From a virus: a stretch of 27,630 nucleotides of DNA. The stretch spans positions 1 through 27,630 of IMG/VR virus record IMGVR_UViG_3300028581_000200. One strand, 5' to 3'. Under the pieces are notes generated by a model, which made no database searches, was not told the origin of the DNA, and saw only the letters and a list, made by a program, of their open reading frames with translations. A program made the position numbers and the translations under genes. Positions 1,851 to 25,685 of the stretch are shown here, in pieces. Within the stretch, counting starts at the first letter, position 1, and each line of letters begins with the position of its first letter.

Positions 1851-3067
1851 TGCTGGTAGAAGAGATACTTAACGAATTCAAGCGAACGCACCTGCAGCAC
1901 ATCGAAGACATAATATTGACCGATGGGCATGCGGGAGGCACGTCCGTGATAGAATATTTCCAGGGCATACTGCAGACCCTGCAGGGCTCCGCGGATCAGC
2001 CCATCAACGTGTCGGTCAAGTGGGACGGAGCGCCCGCGGTGGTGTGCGGAACCAATCCCGAGAACGGCCGTTGGTTCGTGGGCACCAAGGGGGTGTTCGG
2101 CAAGACGCCCAAATTGAACTACACCAAGGATGACATCAGCCGCAACCACGGCACCGATGACCTTGGACAGAAATTATTGAAGTGCCTGGTGCATCTCGAA
2201 AAATTAAACATCAAGGGCATCGTGCAGGGCGACTACATGTTCCACAGGGAAACCCTGCAGAGGCAGAGCATGTCAGGTGAAAATTATCTCACGTTCAAAC
2301 CCAACACCATAACTTACGCGGTGCCCGAGGACAGCGACCTGGGCCGGCAGATGGCCGCCGCACAGGTGGGCATCATATTCCACACCACCTACTCAGGTTC
2401 TAGGATCGACAATCTAAAGGCACAGTACGGGGCGGACGTCGCAGCTTTCACAAAGACCCCAGATGTTTGGTTTGACAACGCCACCTACAAGAACGTCAGC
2501 GGCACGGCCAACTTCACGGCAGAGGAGCAGGCACAGTTCACAGCGGGCATGGACAAATTGAAAGCATTGCTCACCAAGGTGCCAACCAACCTATCAGCCA
2601 TGCTGGGAGTCAACAAGGACTTCCTGCCGTTCTTCATGCTGTTCATAAATGATCAGATCAGGCAAGGCGTGTTGCCCACGGACACCAACGAGTATCTCAA
2701 GGGCTTCGCAGAGTTCTACCAAGGAAGGATGCAGCAACAGGCGGCAGGCTTAAAAGCACAGAAGGCGCTGCAACTGAGGCAGCAGAAGATGAAAGACATG
2801 CCGCTGTTCCTAAAACAGATGCAGCGACCCTTGGCTGCCATGATGGCATTCTACAAGGAAGTCATTGCACTGAAAAAATTAACGCTGGACAAGATGAACA
2901 AGGCCACAGCGATAGGCACGTTCGCACAGACTGACTCGGGCCTGGAGGTCACAGATCCCGAGGGCTTCGTGGCAGTGGGCAAGACGGGTGATGCTGTGAA
3001 ACTGGTGGATCGTTTGGGATTCAGCAGGAAGAATCTAACTTCTATCAACAAGTTCCAGAAAGCCTAG
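1850..3067 (+). CDS. Putative nucleotidyltransferase (ATP-dependent ligase-like), phage protein
   Basis: A 405-aa protein usually annotated as hypothetical in marine T4-like phages. It carries, in the right order, motifs resembling the covalent nucleotidyltransferase (DNA/RNA ligase, capping enzyme) superfamily. Motif I is K57-W-D-G60 in SVKWDGAPAVV; a motif III-like GDYMF is at 127-131; a motif IV-like EGFVAV is at 371-376; a motif V-like AVKLVDR is at 382-388. In that superfamily Lys of KxDG takes AMP or GMP. A long segment (about 180-350), rich in Gln and Lys with probable coiled-coil character, separates motifs III and IV; such spacing is unusual and may be an inserted domain. It is translationally coupled to the previous gene and overlaps the convergent glycosyltransferase gene by 33 bases. 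The frame is certain, the enzymatic call is inference. Confidence 0.6.
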   Translation: MLVEEILNEFKRTHLQHIEDIILTDGHAGGTSVIEYFQGILQTLQGSADQPINVSVKWDGAPAVVCGTNPENGRWFVGTKGVFGKTPKLNYTKDDISRNHGTDDLGQKLLKCLVHLEKLNIKGIVQGDYMFHRETLQRQSMSGENYLTFKPNTITYAVPEDSDLGRQMAAAQVGIIFHTTYSGSRIDNLKAQYGADVAAFTKTPDVWFDNATYKNVSGTANFTAEEQAQFTAGMDKLKALLTKVPTNLSAMLGVNKDFLPFFMLFINDQIRQGVLPTDTNEYLKGFAEFYQGRMQQQAAGLKAQKALQLRQQKMKDMPLFLKQMQRPLAAMMAFYKEVIALKKLTLDKMNKATAIGTFAQTDSGLEVTDPEGFVAVGKTGDAVKLVDRLGFSRKNLTSINKFQKA

Positions 3068-16893: not shown

Positions 16894-17580
16894 ATGTCAT
16901 ACATTTATAAAATTACTAATACAGTTAATAACAAATCTTATATAGGTTACACTAAAAATCCTTCAGCAAGATGGAAAGCACACAAAAATCATCAAGGCTC
17001 AAATTTAATATTTCAAGCAATTAAAAAATATGGAATAGATAAATTTAAATTTAAAATCATTGCAAAAGACATTGTAGAAAATGAACAAAAATATATAGAA
17101 AAATATAATACTCTGTCTCCTTATGGATATAATTTAAGAGAAGGTGGAAGTCTCCCTCCCAATCATAAAGGTAAAACTTACAAAGAAATATATAAAAACT
17201 TAAAAGAAGCCGAACAGCAAAGATTAAAAAGACATTTAAAACAAATACAAACAGGAGGATATGGTCCTAAAAAACATAAAGAGGAAACAAAAAATAAAAT
17301 CAGTGCAGCCTTAACTGGAAAAAATAATCCAATGTACGGAAAAAAACACTCAAATAAAACCAAACAACTTATAAGCAAATCTAATAAAGGTCGTTTTATT
17401 GGATTTAAAAATCCTAAAGCAAAAAAATGGATATTGATCTCTCCCAAGGGAGAACAGCACGAGGCACACGGCGATCTTAGGAAAAAATGCTTGGAACTTG
17501 GATTAAGTTTTGCTACAATACATGCAAGCCATATGCACAATAGACCAATGAGATCAGGATGGAAAATATTACAAAAATAA
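16894..17580 (+). CDS. GIY-YIG homing endonuclease with NUMOD3-type DNA-binding repeats
   Basis: A 228-aa protein. The GIY-YIG motif is present as Y3-I-Y and Y16-I-G18 (SYIGYT), with catalytic Arg R26 and a later Glu in ENEQKYIEKYN. The C-terminal half has NUMOD3-type repeats (KHKEETKNKISAALTG, then KNNPMYGKKHSNKTKQLISK) that bind DNA in related enzymes. It is a free-standing (seg/mob-like) endonuclease, not within an intron. The gene is clearly more AT-rich than nrdB and sits 29 bases after it, the usual place for a mobile endonuclease that spreads by cutting phages lacking it. A short GC-richer patch occurs at about 17440-17490. Confidence 0.85.
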   Translation: MSYIYKITNTVNNKSYIGYTKNPSARWKAHKNHQGSNLIFQAIKKYGIDKFKFKIIAKDIVENEQKYIEKYNTLSPYGYNLREGGSLPPNHKGKTYKEIYKNLKEAEQQRLKRHLKQIQTGGYGPKKHKEETKNKISAALTGKNNPMYGKKHSNKTKQLISKSNKGRFIGFKNPKAKKWILISPKGEQHEAHGDLRKKCLELGLSFATIHASHMHNRPMRSGWKILQK

Positions 17581-18288: not shown

Positions 18289-19500
18289 ATGAGTGTACAG
18301 CAAGGATTAAAATCACTGGCGGAGTCAAGTCCCAACTTCAGCAACACAGGAGTGGAAGCTGCCATAACACTGGCCAACATCGGATTCATAACCAAGACGA
18401 AAACATTGCACTACCTCGTGGACGTCAACAGCACACTGACCGATCCACAAAAGGTCACAATCAGGGCCTCTCTCAACGTGCAGCCCTATCTCAACGCGGG
18501 CAGATACCTACAGGACCTCAGCAACCACACTTCTAAAATATTGGACGGAACCCTGGGAGAGACCGATCCCGACGACGTGGACACGGCCACATTCCAGGAA
18601 CATCTGGGCACTGTGGACGGCATACAGGGATCATACCTGGCGCTGTATGGCCAGGAGGCCAGCACAGCGGGCAAGGGCGTGGACGACTACTTCGGCACGC
18701 TGCGCCAGACCATGAACGGCAAGCTCACTGAGATCAGAGACGCAGCGCAGATAATCACCAACGGCAGTCTGGCCGAGAACACGGCATTCCAGGCCGCCAC
18801 ACAGGCCCTGATAGATTTCGTCAACGCACTGGGCGACAGCACGACCATGGACACCAGCACACTGAACAGCCTGCTCAGCGCCTACGAGTCCGCGGCCAAC
18901 AACTTCAACACGGTGCTGACGGCAGCCGCCTTCAGCCTGCAGAAGGCCATATTGGTCAGCAACAGGGCTGCCATAGTGGCACAGATGGCCACCGAGGCGG
19001 CGAACCTGGGCACCATAAGGACCTATGCCACGTCACTGGCCACGCTGCAGGGATTCCAGAGCCTGGCGAGCAACAGCAAGATCAGGGACCTGATCGGCAA
19101 GGCCGCGCAGACCACCGCATGGAAAGACTACTACGAGAACTACGAGACCAGATTTGCACAGATCAACCTCAAGTATGAGAACGCACTCAGCGACAGCGAG
19201 AACGAGACCATCATCACCAACGAGATGACGCAGCGCGGACTGCCTGACGTCAAGGACCACACGGACCTCAGATCAGTGGCTGCCAAGGCCAGCAGGGACA
19301 CAAGGCTGTCAGAGGTTAGGTTCCAGGGCAGGAGCATAGCACAGATCATGGAGGACTGCTGCGAGAAGCTGGGCATACCATCCAAGGGTCTGGACGTGTA
19401 TGGACAGAGCCAGGTGCTGCTGGAGAACATGAACAGCAACGACAGGGAAATCATAAGAACACAGCTGAATCTGCACCAAGAAGCCAACACTCTGTCATAG
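18289..19500 (+). CDS. Probable baseplate/virion structural protein
   Basis: A 403-aa, Ala-, Thr-, Ser- and Asn-rich protein with long predicted helices from about 110 to 330. It has a Cys pair near the C-terminus (EDCCEKLG). No enzyme motif, signal peptide or membrane segment is seen. It follows the PAAR gene after three bases, which suggests it belongs to the spike/baseplate hub or is a tail structural protein. No family is recognised. The downstream sigma70 promoter of the RNA operon begins within its last codon. Confidence 0.55.
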   Translation: MSVQQGLKSLAESSPNFSNTGVEAAITLANIGFITKTKTLHYLVDVNSTLTDPQKVTIRASLNVQPYLNAGRYLQDLSNHTSKILDGTLGETDPDDVDTATFQEHLGTVDGIQGSYLALYGQEASTAGKGVDDYFGTLRQTMNGKLTEIRDAAQIITNGSLAENTAFQAATQALIDFVNALGDSTTMDTSTLNSLLSAYESAANNFNTVLTAAAFSLQKAILVSNRAAIVAQMATEAANLGTIRTYATSLATLQGFQSLASNSKIRDLIGKAAQTTAWKDYYENYETRFAQINLKYENALSDSENETIITNEMTQRGLPDVKDHTDLRSVAAKASRDTRLSEVRFQGRSIAQIMEDCCEKLGIPSKGLDVYGQSQVLLENMNSNDREIIRTQLNLHQEANTLS

Positions 19501-19525
19501 ACAAACTGCCAAACAGTGTTATAAT
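19498..19525 (+). promoter_or_regulatory. Sigma70-like promoter of the RNase P RNA-tRNA operon
   Basis: TAGACA (19498-19503), 16-base spacer, TATAAT (19520-19525). The expected start, six or seven bases beyond, is 19532, which is exactly the first base of helix P1 of the RNase P-like RNA. Confidence 0.75.
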
Positions 19526-19531
19526 ACTAGC

Positions 19532-19680
19532 ATGATCGAGCCACCGCGGCGGCAATGCCGAGGAAGGTCGGGACACCCCTGGTGGGTGCAAGTCCAAGTA
19601 AGCAGTGAATGGCCAGGCACGCTGCGGGTGGGACGCTGAGACAGATGGTGGCATAGAACAGAATCCCGCCTACGGATCAT
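19532..19680 (+). ncRNA. rnpB: Phage-encoded minimal RNase P RNA (bacterial-type core)
   Basis: About 149 nt, roughly 40% of the Escherichia length, with the universal core. P1 is ATGATC (19532-19537) with GATCAT (19675-19680). P2 is GCCACC (19540-19545) with GGTGGC (19647-19652). P3 is the hairpin CGGC-AAT-GCCG (19550-19560). CR-I is GAGGAAGGTCGGGAC, and CR-V is ACAGAATCCCGCC. P4 forms between GG-T-CGGGA (19566-19573) and TCCCGCC (19664-19670), leaving a single bulged T (19568) where the universally conserved bulged U of P4 lies. AGATG (19643-19647) before P2 matches CR-IV. The insert between is only about 70 nt: CACCC (19574-19578) can pair with GGGTG at 19584 or 19626 (P5), and CCTGG (19578-19582) with CCAGG (19613-19617). 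The specificity domain is therefore largely lost. RNase P removes 5' leaders of tRNA and tmRNA. No protein subunit is seen in the window, so host RnpA may be used. Confidence 0.85.
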
Positions 19681-19686
19681 CAACGT

Positions 19687-19761
19687 GGACCCGTAGTTCA
19701 ACGGATAGAATAGGAGTTTCCTAAACTCTAGATCCAAGTTCGATTCTTGGCGGGTTCACCA
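19687..19761 (+). tRNA. tRNA-Arg (anticodon CCT)
   Basis: 75 nt. Acceptor GGACCCG pairs with CGGGTTC, and CCA is encoded. D stem GTTC/GAAT, anticodon arm GGAGT-TTCCTAA-ACTCT with CCT, T arm CCAAG-TTCGATT-CTTGG. It reads AGG, a codon used often in the GC-richer phage genes here. It starts six bases after the end of the RNase P RNA. Confidence 0.93.
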
Positions 19762-19765
19762 ACAT

Positions 19766-19850
19766 GCGGTCATGTTGGAATTGGTAGACAGGCACGCTTG
19801 AGGGGCGTGTGGAGCAATCCGTGAGAGTTCGAGTCTCTCTGACCGCACCA
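19766..19850 (+). tRNA. tRNA-Leu (anticodon GAG)
   Basis: 85 nt with the long variable arm of leucine tRNA. Acceptor GCGGTCA/TGACCGC with encoded CCA, anticodon arm CACGC-TTGAGGG-GCGTG, T arm GAGAG-TTCGAGT-CTCTC. It reads CTC and CTT. Confidence 0.93.
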
Positions 19851-19854
19851 AGAT

Positions 19855-19929
19855 GGGCACCTAGTTCATTGGTAGAACACTTGCTCGACACGCAAGGGGT
19901 GGCAGGTTCGATTCCTGCGGTGCCCACCA
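19855..19929 (+). tRNA. tRNA-Val (anticodon GAC), with unusual C33
   Basis: 75 nt. Acceptor GGGCACC/GGTGCCC with encoded CCA, D stem GTTC/GAAC, anticodon arm CTTGC-TCGACAC-GCAAG, T arm GCAGG-TTCGATT-CCTGC. All stems pair perfectly and place GAC at 34-36. Position 33 is C instead of the nearly universal U. It would read GTC and GTT. Confidence 0.85.
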
Positions 19930-19932
19930 TAT

Positions 19933-20009
19933 GCACCTGTAGCTCAACTGGATAGAGTGTTGGTCTTCGAAACCAAAGGTTATAAGTTCAAATCTTATCA
20001 GGTGCACCA
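19933..20009 (+). tRNA. tRNA-Arg (anticodon TCG)
   Basis: 77 nt. Acceptor GCACCTG/CAGGTGC with encoded CCA, D stem GCTC/GAGT, anticodon arm TTGGT-CTTCGAA-ACCAA, T arm ATAAG-TTCAAAT-CTTAT. It reads CGA (and other CGN by wobble). It is the last of the four-tRNA run. Confidence 0.93.
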
Positions 20010-20021
20010 ATAAGTAATAGC

Positions 20022-20231
20022 ATGAGGTATCTGTTCTTATTATTATTTTTAATCTCTTGCGGTGTGCAAGACTGTAGAGTGGATCCCAACACCACCGTGC
20101 AGACAAAGACAGAAAACAAAACAGATCCTAAAATGATAGACCCCAAATCAGAGTCAAAGGGCATTGCTGACCAGGTGCGTGATCTTCGCGATAATCTACA
20201 GCCTGGTGCACAGTTGCGTTGTATTTTTTAA
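20022..20231 (+). CDS. Small lipoprotein of unknown function
   Basis: A 69-aa protein with a short lipoprotein signal: hydrophobic MRYLFLLLFLIS followed by Cys13 (L-I-S-C-G lipobox). The mature part is Lys/Asp/Thr-rich and ends PGAQLRCIF. It would be anchored in the outer or cytoplasmic membrane. The size resembles outer-membrane spanins, but no Rz partner or Pro-rich signature is seen, so this is only a thought. It begins 12 bases after the last tRNA and may be on the same transcript. The stop codon lies in the loop of the terminator hairpin. Confidence 0.55.
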   Translation: MRYLFLLLFLISCGVQDCRVDPNTTVQTKTENKTDPKMIDPKSESKGIADQVRDLRDNLQPGAQLRCIF

Positions 20232-20242
20232 CAACGCAACTG
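20211..20242 (+). terminator. Hairpin terminator between convergent genes
   Basis: CAGTTGCGTTGT (20211-20222) pairs perfectly with ACAACGCAACTG (20231-20242), a 12-bp stem with loop ATTTTTTA. It is followed by a T-rich stretch on the plus strand. It probably ends the RNase P-tRNA-lipoprotein transcript and may act for the convergent tctC transcript. Confidence 0.75.
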
Positions 20243-20258: not shown

Positions 20259-21128
20259 TTATTGATATTGTTTAAACTCTTCGGCTGTCTTTAGAAATTT
20301 ATCTAAATTTGCCTTTGATATGCCCACTGTGTTCTCAACAAAATCTTCTTTGTCTAGACTATTGTTGAATTCAGTAGATAGAGACTTCTCTAGTTTAGCA
20401 ACTTGATCTGCAGGTACGTTCCTTACAAAAAGCATCAACCCTAATTTGAATTCATTTAAGGCATCTTTGGTTCCAGTGAATTCAGTCATTGGTTTTTGAC
20501 CATACTTCTTTGATCCTGTTGAATAAAGACATTTGATTGTGCCTGCTTTGATAGCAGTTGCAGCATTACCGGTAGCGATATAGCCAGCATCAATATCTTT
20601 ATTAAGTAATCCTGCCACTGTTTGTCCTGATCCTTCAAAAGTTACAGTTTTGAACTTGATGTTTTTGTTATTTCTATTTAGATGTTCCGTAAGAGAAATT
20701 GTTGGATTAGCTTTGCCGTGTCCAAGTGTGTAAGTTTTTCCTGGCACAAAATCAAAATCTTTCCTAACGCAAACGTCATATGTCACCCAAGTGGCTGCCA
20801 CAGGTTTAGCTTCTGCAAAATTAATTATGCAGTTCTGTTTTGTTTCTGCAGAATTTTTATGCATTGTGACAGAAGTGGTTATACCCACAGGATTTTTTGT
20901 GGTGTTGAAATAATCCACCGCTTCTCCGCAGCTTCCCATTTGTTTTGGAATAATATTGAATCCTGCATTCTTTGAAATGTCTCTCACAGAATAAATGATA
21001 TTGCCATGCGGTCCTTTTAGACTCGAAAATGGCATGACTTCTATGTCTGTAGCCGATGCAGATGATGGGATAGTGATTGCCCACATTACCAATAGTGTTC
21101 CAACTATTTTTTTCATTGTGTTACTCAT
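20259..21128 (-). CDS. TctC-like tripartite tricarboxylate transporter solute-binding protein
   Basis: A 289-aa exported protein. Its signal peptide is about residues 1-26 (basic MKK, then hydrophobic VGTLLVMWAITIPSSASA). The rest follows the TctC/BugT binding-protein pattern, with GSGQTVAGLLNKDIDAGYIATG and a helical C-terminus. Such proteins catch small organic acids in the periplasm and pass them to a TctA/TctB permease; the ligand cannot be read. GGAG seven bases upstream supports the start; Met5 is an alternative. It has its own promoter and lies after the TctA-like gene. AT-rich, bacterial-looking composition suggests gene transfer. The family call is fair, not certain. Confidence 0.65.
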   Translation of the reverse strand: MSNTMKKIVGTLLVMWAITIPSSASATDIEVMPFSSLKGPHGNIIYSVRDISKNAGFNIIPKQMGSCGEAVDYFNTTKNPVGITTSVTMHKNSAETKQNCIINFAEAKPVAATWVTYDVCVRKDFDFVPGKTYTLGHGKANPTISLTEHLNRNNKNIKFKTVTFEGSGQTVAGLLNKDIDAGYIATGNAATAIKAGTIKCLYSTGSKKYGQKPMTEFTGTKDALNEFKLGLMLFVRNVPADQVAKLEKSLSTEFNNSLDKEDFVENTVGISKANLDKFLKTAEEFKQYQ

Positions 21129-21156
21129 TTTTATTCTCCTTTGTGTTTACCTTGTT

Positions 21157-21185
21157 ATTTTATTGTTTTTTCCTAAGAAAGTCAA
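21157..21185 (-). promoter_or_regulatory. Sigma70 promoter of the TctC-like gene, TTGACT-17-TAAAAT
   Basis: On the minus strand TTGACT (21185-21180) and TAAAAT (21162-21157) are separated by 17 bases. The start would be near 21150, leaving a short leader with GGAG before ATG 21128. Confidence 0.6.
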
Positions 21186-21205
21186 GGTTTTACTCTCTTA
21201 GATTT

Positions 21206-22495
21206 TTAAAAATATATTTGTATCACTTGCCTAAAAGTAAACAATATATCTTTGATCAACAGCAGGCCTATTACCACAGGCAGCATGTTTATTTTTATTT
21301 TATGTATTAGCCAGCTCAGTGGCACAAATATAAAAAGATGTACCATGATAAAACTCAAAGAGTGTCTATCTATAAAATAAAAAATTGTAAGGCTTAAACA
21401 AGCCAATCCTATCGAAAACCATCTCTTGGTAATTAATTTTCCTAATAAATTATACATGGAGCGGTTCACCATCACTGACAGCATGTAATAAATTAATCCA
21501 GCCACTATCATTGATGTTAATAGAATTATTTGAGCGTCGGTTGATTTTAGGAAACCGAAATTAAATCCAAATTTATTTAGATGCTGTACCAACAAAACTT
21601 CTGTTGCTGTTATAGGCACTCCCATCAACAACAGAGGAAACCAGCAGGATATTATGGCACTGTTGTTGGCTGTCTCACTGGCTGTGATCCTTTTAAAACA
21701 ATCTCTTTTTTTAAATTTTTCCCAGTTATAAGAGGCATAACTGCTTATGGTTGCTCCCAATTGAGGTATAAAACCAAGCACGGTTCCTACCATGCTATAT
21801 TTGAACATTAAAGGAATATTTTCTGCGATGGGATAAGATGATTTTTGAGACTTAGCAGCCGTTGACAGTTTAATGGGTTTATTCCATATCAATTGCATTA
21901 CAAAAAGTATTATCAATGCCAACATACTGTTGAAATAATACATTGGAAATACTTTGCTCGCCAGGGCGGTAAAAGAATTTAAAAATATTAATATATCGGA
22001 ATAAAAAACAAAAATAATACAGGTCATTAATATTAAAAAATTTTTTATATATTTTTTATCATGAGCCAGTGACAAAATCACCAGGCTTATAAAAACGATC
22101 AGTTTCAACCACAAAGGCATGTAAATTTTGTCAAAGATACCTGTGGATAAACTCAACCAGATTCCTGCAGAAGCTATTAAAGTGGCTATCAAGCTGCCCA
22201 ATGTAGTGAGCTTGATTGCATGATATATTTTTTTTGGAGTATTAATATTTTTAAGTTCTAGAAGCACAGGAAAAGAACTAGACTCTCCTGGAACTTTGAA
22301 ATACAGAGCAGACATGCTGCCAAAGTATTGAGTTCCAATATTCATCACTATGCCATAGATTACAATACAAAGTGGATCAATCGGCACAAATGGTAAGAAT
22401 AATAGGAATCCTAAGAATATAGGCACGCCAGGCAAGAGCCCAGACATGATTCCAGCAAACATACCCAAAAGCATTGTGAATAATATATCAATCAT
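21206..22495 (-). CDS. TctA-like tripartite tricarboxylate transporter permease
   Basis: A 429-aa integral membrane protein with about 10-12 hydrophobic segments. It keeps the two-fold repeat signatures of TctA. The first is FAGIMSGLLPGVP with GTQYFGSMSALYFKVPGESS; the second is GTVLGFIPQLGATISSYASY with ASETANNSAIISCWFPLLLMG and PITATEVLL. TctA is the large permease that moves organic acids with Na+ or H+. It is shorter than the usual 500 aa. The small TctB subunit is missing here. Its ATG follows the PP-loop stop by one base, so translation is coupled. AT-rich. It lies beside the TctC-like gene, which supports a working pair that borrows or skips TctB. Confidence 0.75.
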   Translation of the reverse strand: MIDILFTMLLGMFAGIMSGLLPGVPIFLGFLLFLPFVPIDPLCIVIYGIVMNIGTQYFGSMSALYFKVPGESSSFPVLLELKNINTPKKIYHAIKLTTLGSLIATLIASAGIWLSLSTGIFDKIYMPLWLKLIVFISLVILSLAHDKKYIKNFLILMTCIIFVFYSDILIFLNSFTALASKVFPMYYFNSMLALIILFVMQLIWNKPIKLSTAAKSQKSSYPIAENIPLMFKYSMVGTVLGFIPQLGATISSYASYNWEKFKKRDCFKRITASETANNSAIISCWFPLLLMGVPITATEVLLVQHLNKFGFNFGFLKSTDAQIILLTSMIVAGLIYYMLSVMVNRSMYNLLGKLITKRWFSIGLACLSLTIFYFIDRHSLSFIMVHLFIFVPLSWLIHKIKINMLPVVIGLLLIKDILFTFRQVIQIYF

Positions 22496-24448: not shown

Positions 24449-24817
24449 TTACTTAATTTCCAGCTCTGCGCCGGCATCGGTCAGAGACTTTTTAATCTTT
24501 TCTGCTTCTTCTTTTTGTAGATCGGCCTTTACCAATTTTGGGGCAGCCTCAACAAATGCCTTGGCTTCCATCAACCCCAATCCCAATATATCCTTGATTA
24601 TTTTTAGTATTACCATTTTCCTATCTGCTGGGTATGCTTTGAGAGTTATTGAAACCAACGCATCCTCACCAGCAACAGTTGGCGTTGTTGTTGCCACCGC
24701 TGTGGTTGCCGAAGGTAATTCTATTCCCCATTTTTTAGATAATAACTCAGACAACTCTCCTGCCTCTGGTCCTGAGAGCGCTACCACTTCGTTTAGGAAT
24801 GTTTGATCTAATGCCAT
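24449..24817 (-). CDS. rplL: Ribosomal protein bL12 (L7/L12), phage-encoded
   Basis: A 122-aa full-length bL12. The N-terminal dimer/bL10-binding part starts MALDQTFLNEVVALSGPEAG and continues to KKWGIELP. A short Ala/Thr/Val hinge follows (about 36-50). The C-terminal factor-binding domain has the diagnostic ILGLGLMEAKAFVEAAPKLV and ends LTDAGAELEIK. In cells bL12 forms the ribosomal stalk that recruits EF-G, EF-Tu and IF2. The phage copy may exchange into host ribosomes to favour phage mRNA, which is inference. ATG 24817 is chosen by alignment; the frame is open further upstream. It has an ideal sigma70 promoter and a predicted leader of only about six bases. It is divergent from the HNH gene. 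Confidence 0.93.
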   Translation of the reverse strand: MALDQTFLNEVVALSGPEAGELSELLSKKWGIELPSATTAVATTTPTVAGEDALVSITLKAYPADRKMVILKIIKDILGLGLMEAKAFVEAAPKLVKADLQKEEAEKIKKSLTDAGAELEIK

Positions 24818-24829
24818 GATTGTTTTTAT

Positions 24830-24858: not shown

Positions 24859-24905
24859 GTTGACAGCACTGCGAAATTTTGTGTCGAAACCAAATAAATA
24901 TAATA

Positions 24906-25367
24906 ATGATATTACATAAACACCATATAATACCTAAACATGTAGGTGGTACAAATAACAAATCTAATTTAATAGAATTAACTCCTGAACAACATGCAGA
25001 AGCTCATAGAAAATTATGGAAAAAATATAGCAGATGGCAAGATTTTTGTGCATGGCAAGGATTAGCTAAATTATCTAAAGATAAAGAACATATAAAACTT
25101 GTTATGAGTGAAAGAAACAAAGCTAGTTGGAAAGATCCAGTGGTAAGAGCAAAAAGAATTGCAGGAATGAAATCGTCCACTTATAAAAACAGAACTTGTA
25201 ATAGAAAAAATTATGAAATAACAACTCCTAACGGTAAAAAAATAAAAATTTATGGTTTAAGAAAATGGTGTAAAGATAATGGATTGAATCATAATTCTTT
25301 TTGGAGAGCCACAATAGCAGATAGTAGACAATTTCGAGGATATACTGCTAAAAGATTGACAAAGTAA
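24906..25367 (+). CDS. HNH homing endonuclease
   Basis: A 153-aa protein. The HNH motif is complete: H6-H7 (LHKHHIIPKH), N21 in NKSNLIEL and H30/H34 in EQHAEAHRKLW, followed by a basic, helical DNA-binding C-terminal part with NGKKIKIYGLRKWCKDNG (NUMOD1-like). ATG 24906 is preferred over earlier near-cognate starts, with a CAAATAAATA box (24891-24900) just upstream. It is AT-rich and free-standing, placed between bL12 and the tmRNA. The TTGACA of the tmRNA promoter is inside its last codons. Confidence 0.8.
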   Translation: MILHKHHIIPKHVGGTNNKSNLIELTPEQHAEAHRKLWKKYSRWQDFCAWQGLAKLSKDKEHIKLVMSERNKASWKDPVVRAKRIAGMKSSTYKNRTCNRKNYEITTPNGKKIKIYGLRKWCKDNGLNHNSFWRATIADSRQFRGYTAKRLTK

Positions 25368-25384
25368 AAAATTATGTTTAAATA
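25356..25384 (+). promoter_or_regulatory. Promoter of the tmRNA, TTGACA-17-TAAATA
   Basis: TTGACA (25356-25361), 17 bases, TAAATA (25379-25384), the latter also part of a TTTAAATA late-type box (25377-25384). It could be read by host sigma70 early and by the late sigma later. Predicted start is near 25391. Confidence 0.5.
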
Positions 25385-25390
25385 CTATTG

Positions 25391-25682
25391 TAAACGTTGA
25401 AGTACAAAGATAATTTTTACGGACCGGGCTCGATGCCCGCACCTCCACCAAAGTTATTATTGGTGGCTTATGTAATCCCTATCGGGGGTGTAAGAATCGA
25501 CGTACTATGAAGGTTGTATGGAGTTTATCAGTTAGGCACCCTGTAAAGGTCCAAAACTACAAATGCTAAAAGCAAAGCATTTGGATTTGCTGACTTAACG
25601 GTCGGTAGATCTAAAATGAGATTGGCTGCTTAATAACCAGCTACCTCGGGGCACGGGCAACGCCTGGCAACAGAAGTTGCCC
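25391..25682 (+). ncRNA. ssrA: Two-piece (circularly permuted) tmRNA, phage-encoded
   Basis: The gene order is permuted. The acceptor piece (about 25391-25450) comes first: T arm CGGG-CTCGATG-CCCG (25425-25439), acceptor strand CACCTCC (25440-25446), then ACCA. A 33-nt spacer (25451-25483) follows, then the coding piece (25484 to about 25682). The latter begins GGGGGTG, which pairs fully with CACCTCC (one G-T), followed by the D-loop-like AATCGACG. The tag frame runs from GCT 25565 to TAATAA (25631), about 22 codons, starting AKSKAFGF and ending RSKMRLAA. The stop codons sit in the loop of GGCTG/CCAGC, as in Escherichia, where CTTAATAACC is shared. GGTAG/CTACC encloses this, and GGGCAAC/GTTGCCC closes the 3' end. 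tmRNA rescues stalled ribosomes with SmpB, which is not in the window. The permuted type is known mainly from alphaproteobacteria and some cyanobacteria and betaproteobacteria. Confidence 0.88.
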
Positions 25683-25685
25683 TTC

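Follow-up and report, generated by a model that had tools for sequence, protein, structure and literature searches.

A virus record from IMG/VR (IMGVR_UViG_3300028581_000200; 27,630 bases, hereafter the window, meaning the whole stretch of DNA analysed) encodes an RNase P RNA of 149 nt that consists of the catalytic domain only. Its identity as an RNase P RNA is shown by homology, by compensatory changes and by covariation across a family of relatives; its catalysis is inferred. Our preferred reading, to which we give a rough probability of 0.77, is that the RNA acts in trans and matures the tRNAs of the phage together with the host protein RnpA. The homology, the fold, the conserved letters of the catalytic core, the genetic context and the absence of RnpA from the phage records searched are shown, and expression, RnpA binding and catalysis are inferred. 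An initial annotation, made from sequence alone, had proposed a minimal RNase P RNA encoded by a virus, and this claim held on homology and covariation, with cleavage activity remaining an inference. RNase P is the classic natural trans-acting ribozyme and is normally specified by a single cellular gene. The open-access literature searched yielded no account of an RNase P RNA in a phage; subscription papers and preprints were outside the scope of that search, and a prior description is possible. In the closest open-access paper only tRNAs and tmRNA were detected in megaphages, and RNase P goes unmentioned in the huge-phage paper.

Identification and anatomy of the RNA

The bacterial class A model RF00010 matches positions 19528-19687 (+) end to end (model positions 1-367) with 64.8 bits, at E 1.2e-19 in a local scan and 2.0e-21 in a scan of the whole record. 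The score falls short of the Rfam gathering threshold of 100 bits because the specificity domain is missing, and a routine Rfam scan therefore misses the RNA. No separate match to the archaeal type T model was reported for it, overlapping lower-scoring clan hits having been left out. The initial annotation had described an RNA of about 149 nt with P1-P4, a bulged U and CR-I, CR-IV and CR-V in order, and had called for a scan with the Rfam covariance models; the scan gave this match, under the cut-off, and the description held, with the helices lying where Table 1 places them.

The molecule retains P1, P2, P3, P4 with its bulged U, P5, P6, P15 and P16, along with the GGGU motif of L15 and, in the expected order, CR-I (GAGGAAgGUCgGGAC), CR-IV (GCAAGuCCAA.UA) and CR-V (AACAGAAuCCcGCcUAC). 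P1-P3 form a cruciform, P2 and P4 form a pseudoknot, and P6, the type A feature between the P5/P7 junction and the P16/17 loop, is present as well. As judged from the RF00010 alignment and a reading of the structure, P18 is missing, and so is the entire specificity domain (P7-P14, including CR-II and CR-III), whose place is taken by a 7-nt P5 loop; no hairpin stands ahead of J18/2. The further claim that nearly all of P12-P18 had been lost was thus only partly borne out, since P7-P14 and P18 are gone but P15, P16 and P6 are kept. The retention of these three elements had not been foreseen, nor had the family in many phages, beside tRNA genes, that is described below.

Single-sequence folding was rejected as support for this structure, because the minimum-energy structure of the window RNA is a different fold and its z-score is only -0.94. 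Pseudoknotted RNAs are commonly not revealed by thermodynamics alone. The support for the fold is comparative, not thermodynamic, and it is possible that the RNA, having a lower-energy alternative when alone, needs a protein or co-transcriptional folding to reach its structure.

The gene sits between a gene for a 403-aa protein of unknown function and four tRNA genes, which are spaced 3-4 nt apart and all encode their CCA. The predicted start point of the sigma-70-type promoter (about 19531-19532) coincides with the first base of P1, so that the transcript would begin at P1 and the RNA would be co-transcribed with the four tRNAs. Only a 6-nt leader, CAACGU (19681-19686), lies between the end of P1 and tRNA-Arg (CCU).

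Table 1. Coordinates of the RNase P RNA, its elements and its neighbours in the window.
Feature	Position	Strand	Details
Sigma-70-type promoter	19498..19525	+	TAGACA-16-TATAAT; 11/12 consensus, TG before -10
RNase P RNA, catalytic domain only	19532..19680	+	149 nt (P1 to P1'); RF00010 match, comparison with contig L097
P1	19532..19537 with 19675-19680	+	AUGAUC/GAUCAU; covariation
P2	19540..19545 with 19647-19652	+	GCCACC/GGUGGC; two compensatory pairs vs L097; 100% paired, n=57
P3 hairpin	19547..19560	+	CGGC/GCCG; one compensatory pair vs L097
P4	19566..19573 (CR-I) with 19664-19670 (CR-V)	+	GG-[U19568]-CGGGA/UCCCG-CC; bulged U19568
P5 stem	19574..19588	+	CACC/GGUG; one compensatory pair vs L097
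P6 pseudoknot	19578..19582 (P5 loop) with 19613-19617 (P16 hairpin loop)	+	CCUGG/CCAGG
P15	19592-19595 with 19631-19634	+	GUCC/GGAC; encloses P16 and L15
P16	19602-19607 with 19620-19625	+	GCAGUG/CGCUGC
L15	19626-19629	+	GGGU, presumed tRNA-CCA binding motif
tRNA-Arg (CCU)	19687..19761	+	CCA encoded; starts 7 nt past last P1 base
tRNA-Leu (GAG)	19766..19850	+
tRNA-Val (GAC)	19855..19929	+
tRNA-Arg (UCG)	19933..20009	+	tRNA kept at corresponding site in contigs L022 and L023
Terminator-like hairpin	20211..20242	+	consensus scan only; transcription unit of P RNA and tRNAs may end here

Covariation and distribution

The nearest homologue, in contig L097, aligns with the window RNA without gaps over 155 nt and differs from it by 29 substitutions. 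Fourteen of these fall in helices, where they create six compensatory pairs (two in P2 and one each in P3, P4, P5 and P6) and two tolerated one-sided changes without breaking a single pair; when the substitutions were placed at random, none of 100,000 placements reached six compensatory pairs and the maximum was four. A lack of compensating changes among homologues had been set in advance as a refuting outcome, and the claim was not refuted. The compensatory change in P6 turns it into CCUGA/UCAGG in L097, and in contigs L002-L008 the letters of this helix differ yet stay complementary (GGUAG/CUACC, GGCAG/CUGCC, GGUGG/CCACC and GUUGAG/CUCAAC).

Across 57 sequences, P4 is 98.7% paired and shows 103 double-changed cells against a shuffled mean of 25.7, with a covariation of 0.621 against 0.173 in the shuffles. 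P4 and P6 had been left out of the covariance model used in the search (R1, built from eight short sequences), yet both covary, as do P1, P2, P3 and P15 across the family. The pair types of P4 swap freely where the search pattern left positions open. The patterns did fix the bulged U and two P4 pairs; the presence of the U in 57/57 sequences is mostly imposed by the pattern, so that this invariance reflects in part the selection made by the search and is not independent evidence. In an alignment of 14 short sequences, 91.2% of the cells pair and double-changed cells number 115 (37.4 in shuffles), whereas pairing drops to 27-39% in slid versions of the same alignment. P6 pairing stands at 69% there, a count lowered by alignment shifts, and the L15 GGU motif is kept in every one of the 14 rows.

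These data bear on the view that the RNA is a decaying, non-functional relic of a captured host rnpB. The greater part of the molecule is indeed missing, and relatives of the phage without the RNA exist. However, compensatory evolution in every pseudoknotted helix and an intact core in dozens of diverged copies already contradict this explanation, which we consider very unlikely.

Pattern scans, the covariance model and BLAST together yielded relatives in two published huge phages, in one cultured phage, DLP6, and in some 68 further IMG/VR contigs. A gapped CR-I/CR-V pattern detected seven more IMG/VR contigs in which the spacing equals that of the window RNA, and a relaxed pattern added another seven, all of which also match the covariance model. 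Patterns with longer gaps uncovered a second class of about 190-210 nt bearing a short P7/P8-like remnant, and no still shorter form was found by the pattern search at gaps of 40-69. The seven contigs of the relaxed pattern aside, R1 scores 64 loci at E<1e-4, namely the window, 61 IMG/VR contigs (some of them near-duplicates), DLP6 and the cellular contig L025. The copy number is a lower bound, because the search patterns fixed the bulged U and two P4 pairs. A further contig, L034, matched the pattern and was rejected, as the covariance model finds no RNA in it. Among 19 contigs tested, only L016 (10596-10802) and L019 (482-672) exceed the RF00010 cut-off; these phage-contig RNAs of about 200 nt look built unlike the main class and could represent separate captures.

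The association with tRNA genes is a recurring one. A tRNA on the same strand lies within 30 nt of the RNA in at least 39 of 57 copies (28 downstream and 11 more upstream), and directly downstream in all of the first eight short copies. Contigs L022 and L023, whose upstream proteins are 77% and 70% identical to that of the window, have a promoter like the window's ahead of their tRNA genes and retain the tRNA site, without the RNA. This arrangement marks the gene as an accessory cassette, and the RNA is not essential for this type of phage.

One relative belongs to Stenotrophomonas phage vB_SmaS-DLP_6 (KU682439.2), which is cultured and deposited as complete and which carries an unannotated RNase P RNA at about 105,774-106,020. 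When the window RNA was compared by BLASTN with GenBank phages, no convincing full match was obtained and the hits were short and chance-like, DLP6 excepted; two different queries hit DLP6 at one shared CR-V place, which led to a closer look at this phage. The RNA of about 247 nt (2802-3048 of our excerpt, L026) lies in a tRNA region with a tRNA-Arg directly after it and has P1 UUUGCAAGCC/GGCUUGCAAA, P2 GUCAUC/GAUGAC and P6 GUGAGAA/UUCUCAC; an Rfam scan misses it even at E 1. The huge phages LR756508.1 (484 kb) and LR756511.1 (595 kb), deposited as uncultured, each carry a relative. That of LR756508.1 scores only weakly with the model (E 1e-4 for an excerpt, absent from the genome-wide scan) and is clear by eye, with P1 GGUCUA/UAGACC, P4 GC-U-CUAGA/UCUAG-GC and a tRNA-Ser next to it.

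Several other matches were not counted as relatives. That in Stenotrophomonas ANB28 lies inside a coding gene, and a weak one in Streptomyces phage Daubenski lies inside thyX; in Fusobacterium phages JD-Fnp1/4 and Enterocloster CB457P2 only a J18/2-like stretch matches, and no RNA was found at a meaningful model E-value.

Because the origin of a metagenomic contig is only inferred, it could be argued that the RNA is not viral and represents host or assembly contamination inside a viral contig. The window, however, holds T4-like genes for the large and small subunits of ribonucleotide reductase (the small subunit being 63% identical to those of Pelagibacter phage Mosig and Synechococcus phage S-SSM7), as well as a PAAR protein, a phage exonuclease, tail-spike-like and structural proteins and DUF6267, and the same type of RNA is carried by cultured DLP6 and by the two published huge-phage genomes. 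Contamination is therefore a very remote possibility.

A strict short pattern, run over about 85,000 prokaryote species, matched two places, only one of which is a real mini-gene. The other, L024 (Saprospiraceae), was rejected, as a normal full-length P RNA had been matched there through a second CR-I-like stretch. The real one, L025 (JACRNU010000015.1, 3931-4107, -), is a second, mini P RNA among the tRNA genes of an Elusimicrobia genome in which a normal P RNA (154.9 bits) and RnpA are present too; its contig bears cellular-looking genes. It seems to keep P18 and to lack P6 and P16, and thus looks like an independent reduction. Within this one strict pattern and these species, no cell was found to rely on a P RNA as short as that of the phage.

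Proposed function

In the mechanism we propose, the phage RNA would fold into a double pseudoknot (P2/P4 and P5/P6), bind the RnpA protein of the host and cleave the 5' leaders of phage pre-tRNAs. Recognition would rest on the acceptor stem, the CCA end (through L15 GGGU) and the leader, and not on the T-loop, which is normally bound by the lost S domain. A cut at the start of tRNA-Arg (19687) would also free the 3' end of the P RNA itself. The presumed benefit is a supply of RNase P once the genes of the host have been silenced or degraded in the infection. The use of a host protein is inferred; RnpA (PF00825) was found in none of 29 phage records of up to 595 kb, 27 of which carry the RNA, with controls positive in 10 of 14 genomes. 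As most of the IMG/VR contigs are fragments, this absence is weak evidence for them, except in the case of DLP6, deposited as complete.

Biochemical work on truncated RNAs makes such an activity plausible. Model substrates are cut by the isolated catalytic domain of the E. coli RNA, whether or not protein is present; the reaction relies on a P6-like contact, and P18 becomes dispensable in the absence of the S domain (PMC5839562). Cleavage by C domains, unaided as well as assisted by RnpA, has been reviewed (PMC4919922). The activity of isolated catalytic domains in vitro is hundreds- to thousands-fold lower (PMC5839562). The phage RNA keeps P6 and has dropped P18 and the S domain, as the E. 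coli results would predict for a functioning core, and a working RNase P RNA is thus most likely, its catalysis being inferred.

Two other functions could be envisaged. First, the RNA could be a decoy whose catalytic domain titrates the protein subunit of the host and so weakens host RNase P during infection. The part retained, the catalytic domain, is the one to which RnpA binds; the short gene is equipped with a promoter of its own; and phages often switch off host functions. A decoy, however, would have no need of the P4 bulged U, the CR-V adenines or the CCA-binding motif of L15, which are kept while P4 pairs swap; the placement in tRNA clusters suits a tRNA-processing helper, and a block of RNase P would harm the phage's own tRNAs. 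We therefore regard a decoy as unlikely. Second, the RNA could be a specialised RNase P acting mainly on other phage substrates, such as the permuted pre-tmRNA at 25352-25684, mRNAs or intergenic hairpins, or one with an altered specificity that favours phage pre-tRNAs over those of the host. Loss of the S domain removes T-loop recognition and should broaden or shift the choice of substrate, and a permuted tmRNA is present in this contig and in L004 and L006. The constant neighbours of the RNA are nevertheless tRNA genes, not tmRNA, and this alternative also seems improbable to us.

Maturation of phage tRNAs with host RnpA remains the preferred reading. A bolder version, which the evidence neither favours nor disfavours, is that these RNAs form a widespread viral class whose shortest form, devoid of a specificity domain, is a trans-acting ribozyme, autonomous or borrowing RnpA, that matures tRNAs independently of host rnpB and may release its own 3' end through a cut at the adjoining tRNA.

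Should the phage RNAs prove active, viruses would possess a copy of one of the oldest RNA enzymes, and it would be explained how tRNA-rich phages could sustain tRNA maturation after host shut-off. The natural series, grading from full type A through the P7/P8 remnant to the bare catalytic core, would then reveal the parts that are dispensable under selection. Long-standing questions on the minimal RNase P, on what P6 does when no S domain is present and on how freely the P4 sequence can vary would become directly testable, with cultured DLP6 as a starting point, and a very small tRNA-processing ribozyme would be available for engineering.

Relation to known ribozymes and neighbouring genes

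The closest likeness is to bacterial type A (RF00010, rnpB), with which the phage RNA shares P1-P6, P15, P16, CR-I/IV/V, the P4 bulged U, L15 GGU and the double pseudoknot. In contrast to type A, which averages about 374 nt (PMC7191817), it has 149 nt, lacks P7-P14, CR-II, CR-III and P18, is encoded by a phage next to tRNA genes and scores under the Rfam cut-off. Archaeal type T (Pyrobaculum-type) likewise consists of a catalytic domain whose S domain is lost or degenerate, with a modelled P6 (PMC4919922, PMC5839562). It is archaeal and cellular, however, works with several RPP proteins and measures about 207 nt in Thermoproteus uzoniensis (PMC7191817), whereas the phage RNA is smaller and bacterial type A in detail. 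Engineered C domains (E. coli CP RPR and P. furiosus; PMC5839562) have the same helices, require a P6-like contact and can dispense with P18, but they are laboratory truncations, while the phage RNA is natural and has undergone compensatory evolution in its truncated form. Very small RNase P RNAs also occur in some fungal mitochondria, so that the status of smallest natural RNase P is not established and we claim no size record.

The theta ribozymes of gut phages (PMC10879173) offer a parallel of another kind, being phage ribozymes beside tRNA genes with a proposed role in viral tRNA maturation. They are HDV-like self-cleaving RNAs that act once, in cis, at tRNA 3' ends, whereas the phage RNase P RNA is expected to act in trans at 5' ends.

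The window also contains further translation components. A phage-borne ribosomal protein bL12 (L7/L12) is encoded at 24452-24820 (-), and a permuted (two-piece) tmRNA at 25352-25684 (+) scores above the Rfam cut-offs with both RF04321 (80.2 bits) and RF01849 (65.3 bits), having been missed by ARAGORN. Both are bacterial genes, which argues against an archaeal host. In L004 and L006 the permuted tmRNAs lie near the mini P RNA. Two reading frames recognised by eye could encode homing endonucleases, one of the GIY-YIG type (16894-17580, +) and one of the HNH type (24879-25367, +), the latter ending just before the tmRNA. Finally, this phage contig holds a Pfam-supported TctA-family tricarboxylate transporter permease at 20259-22495 (-), beside which lies, as judged by eye, a probable binding protein.
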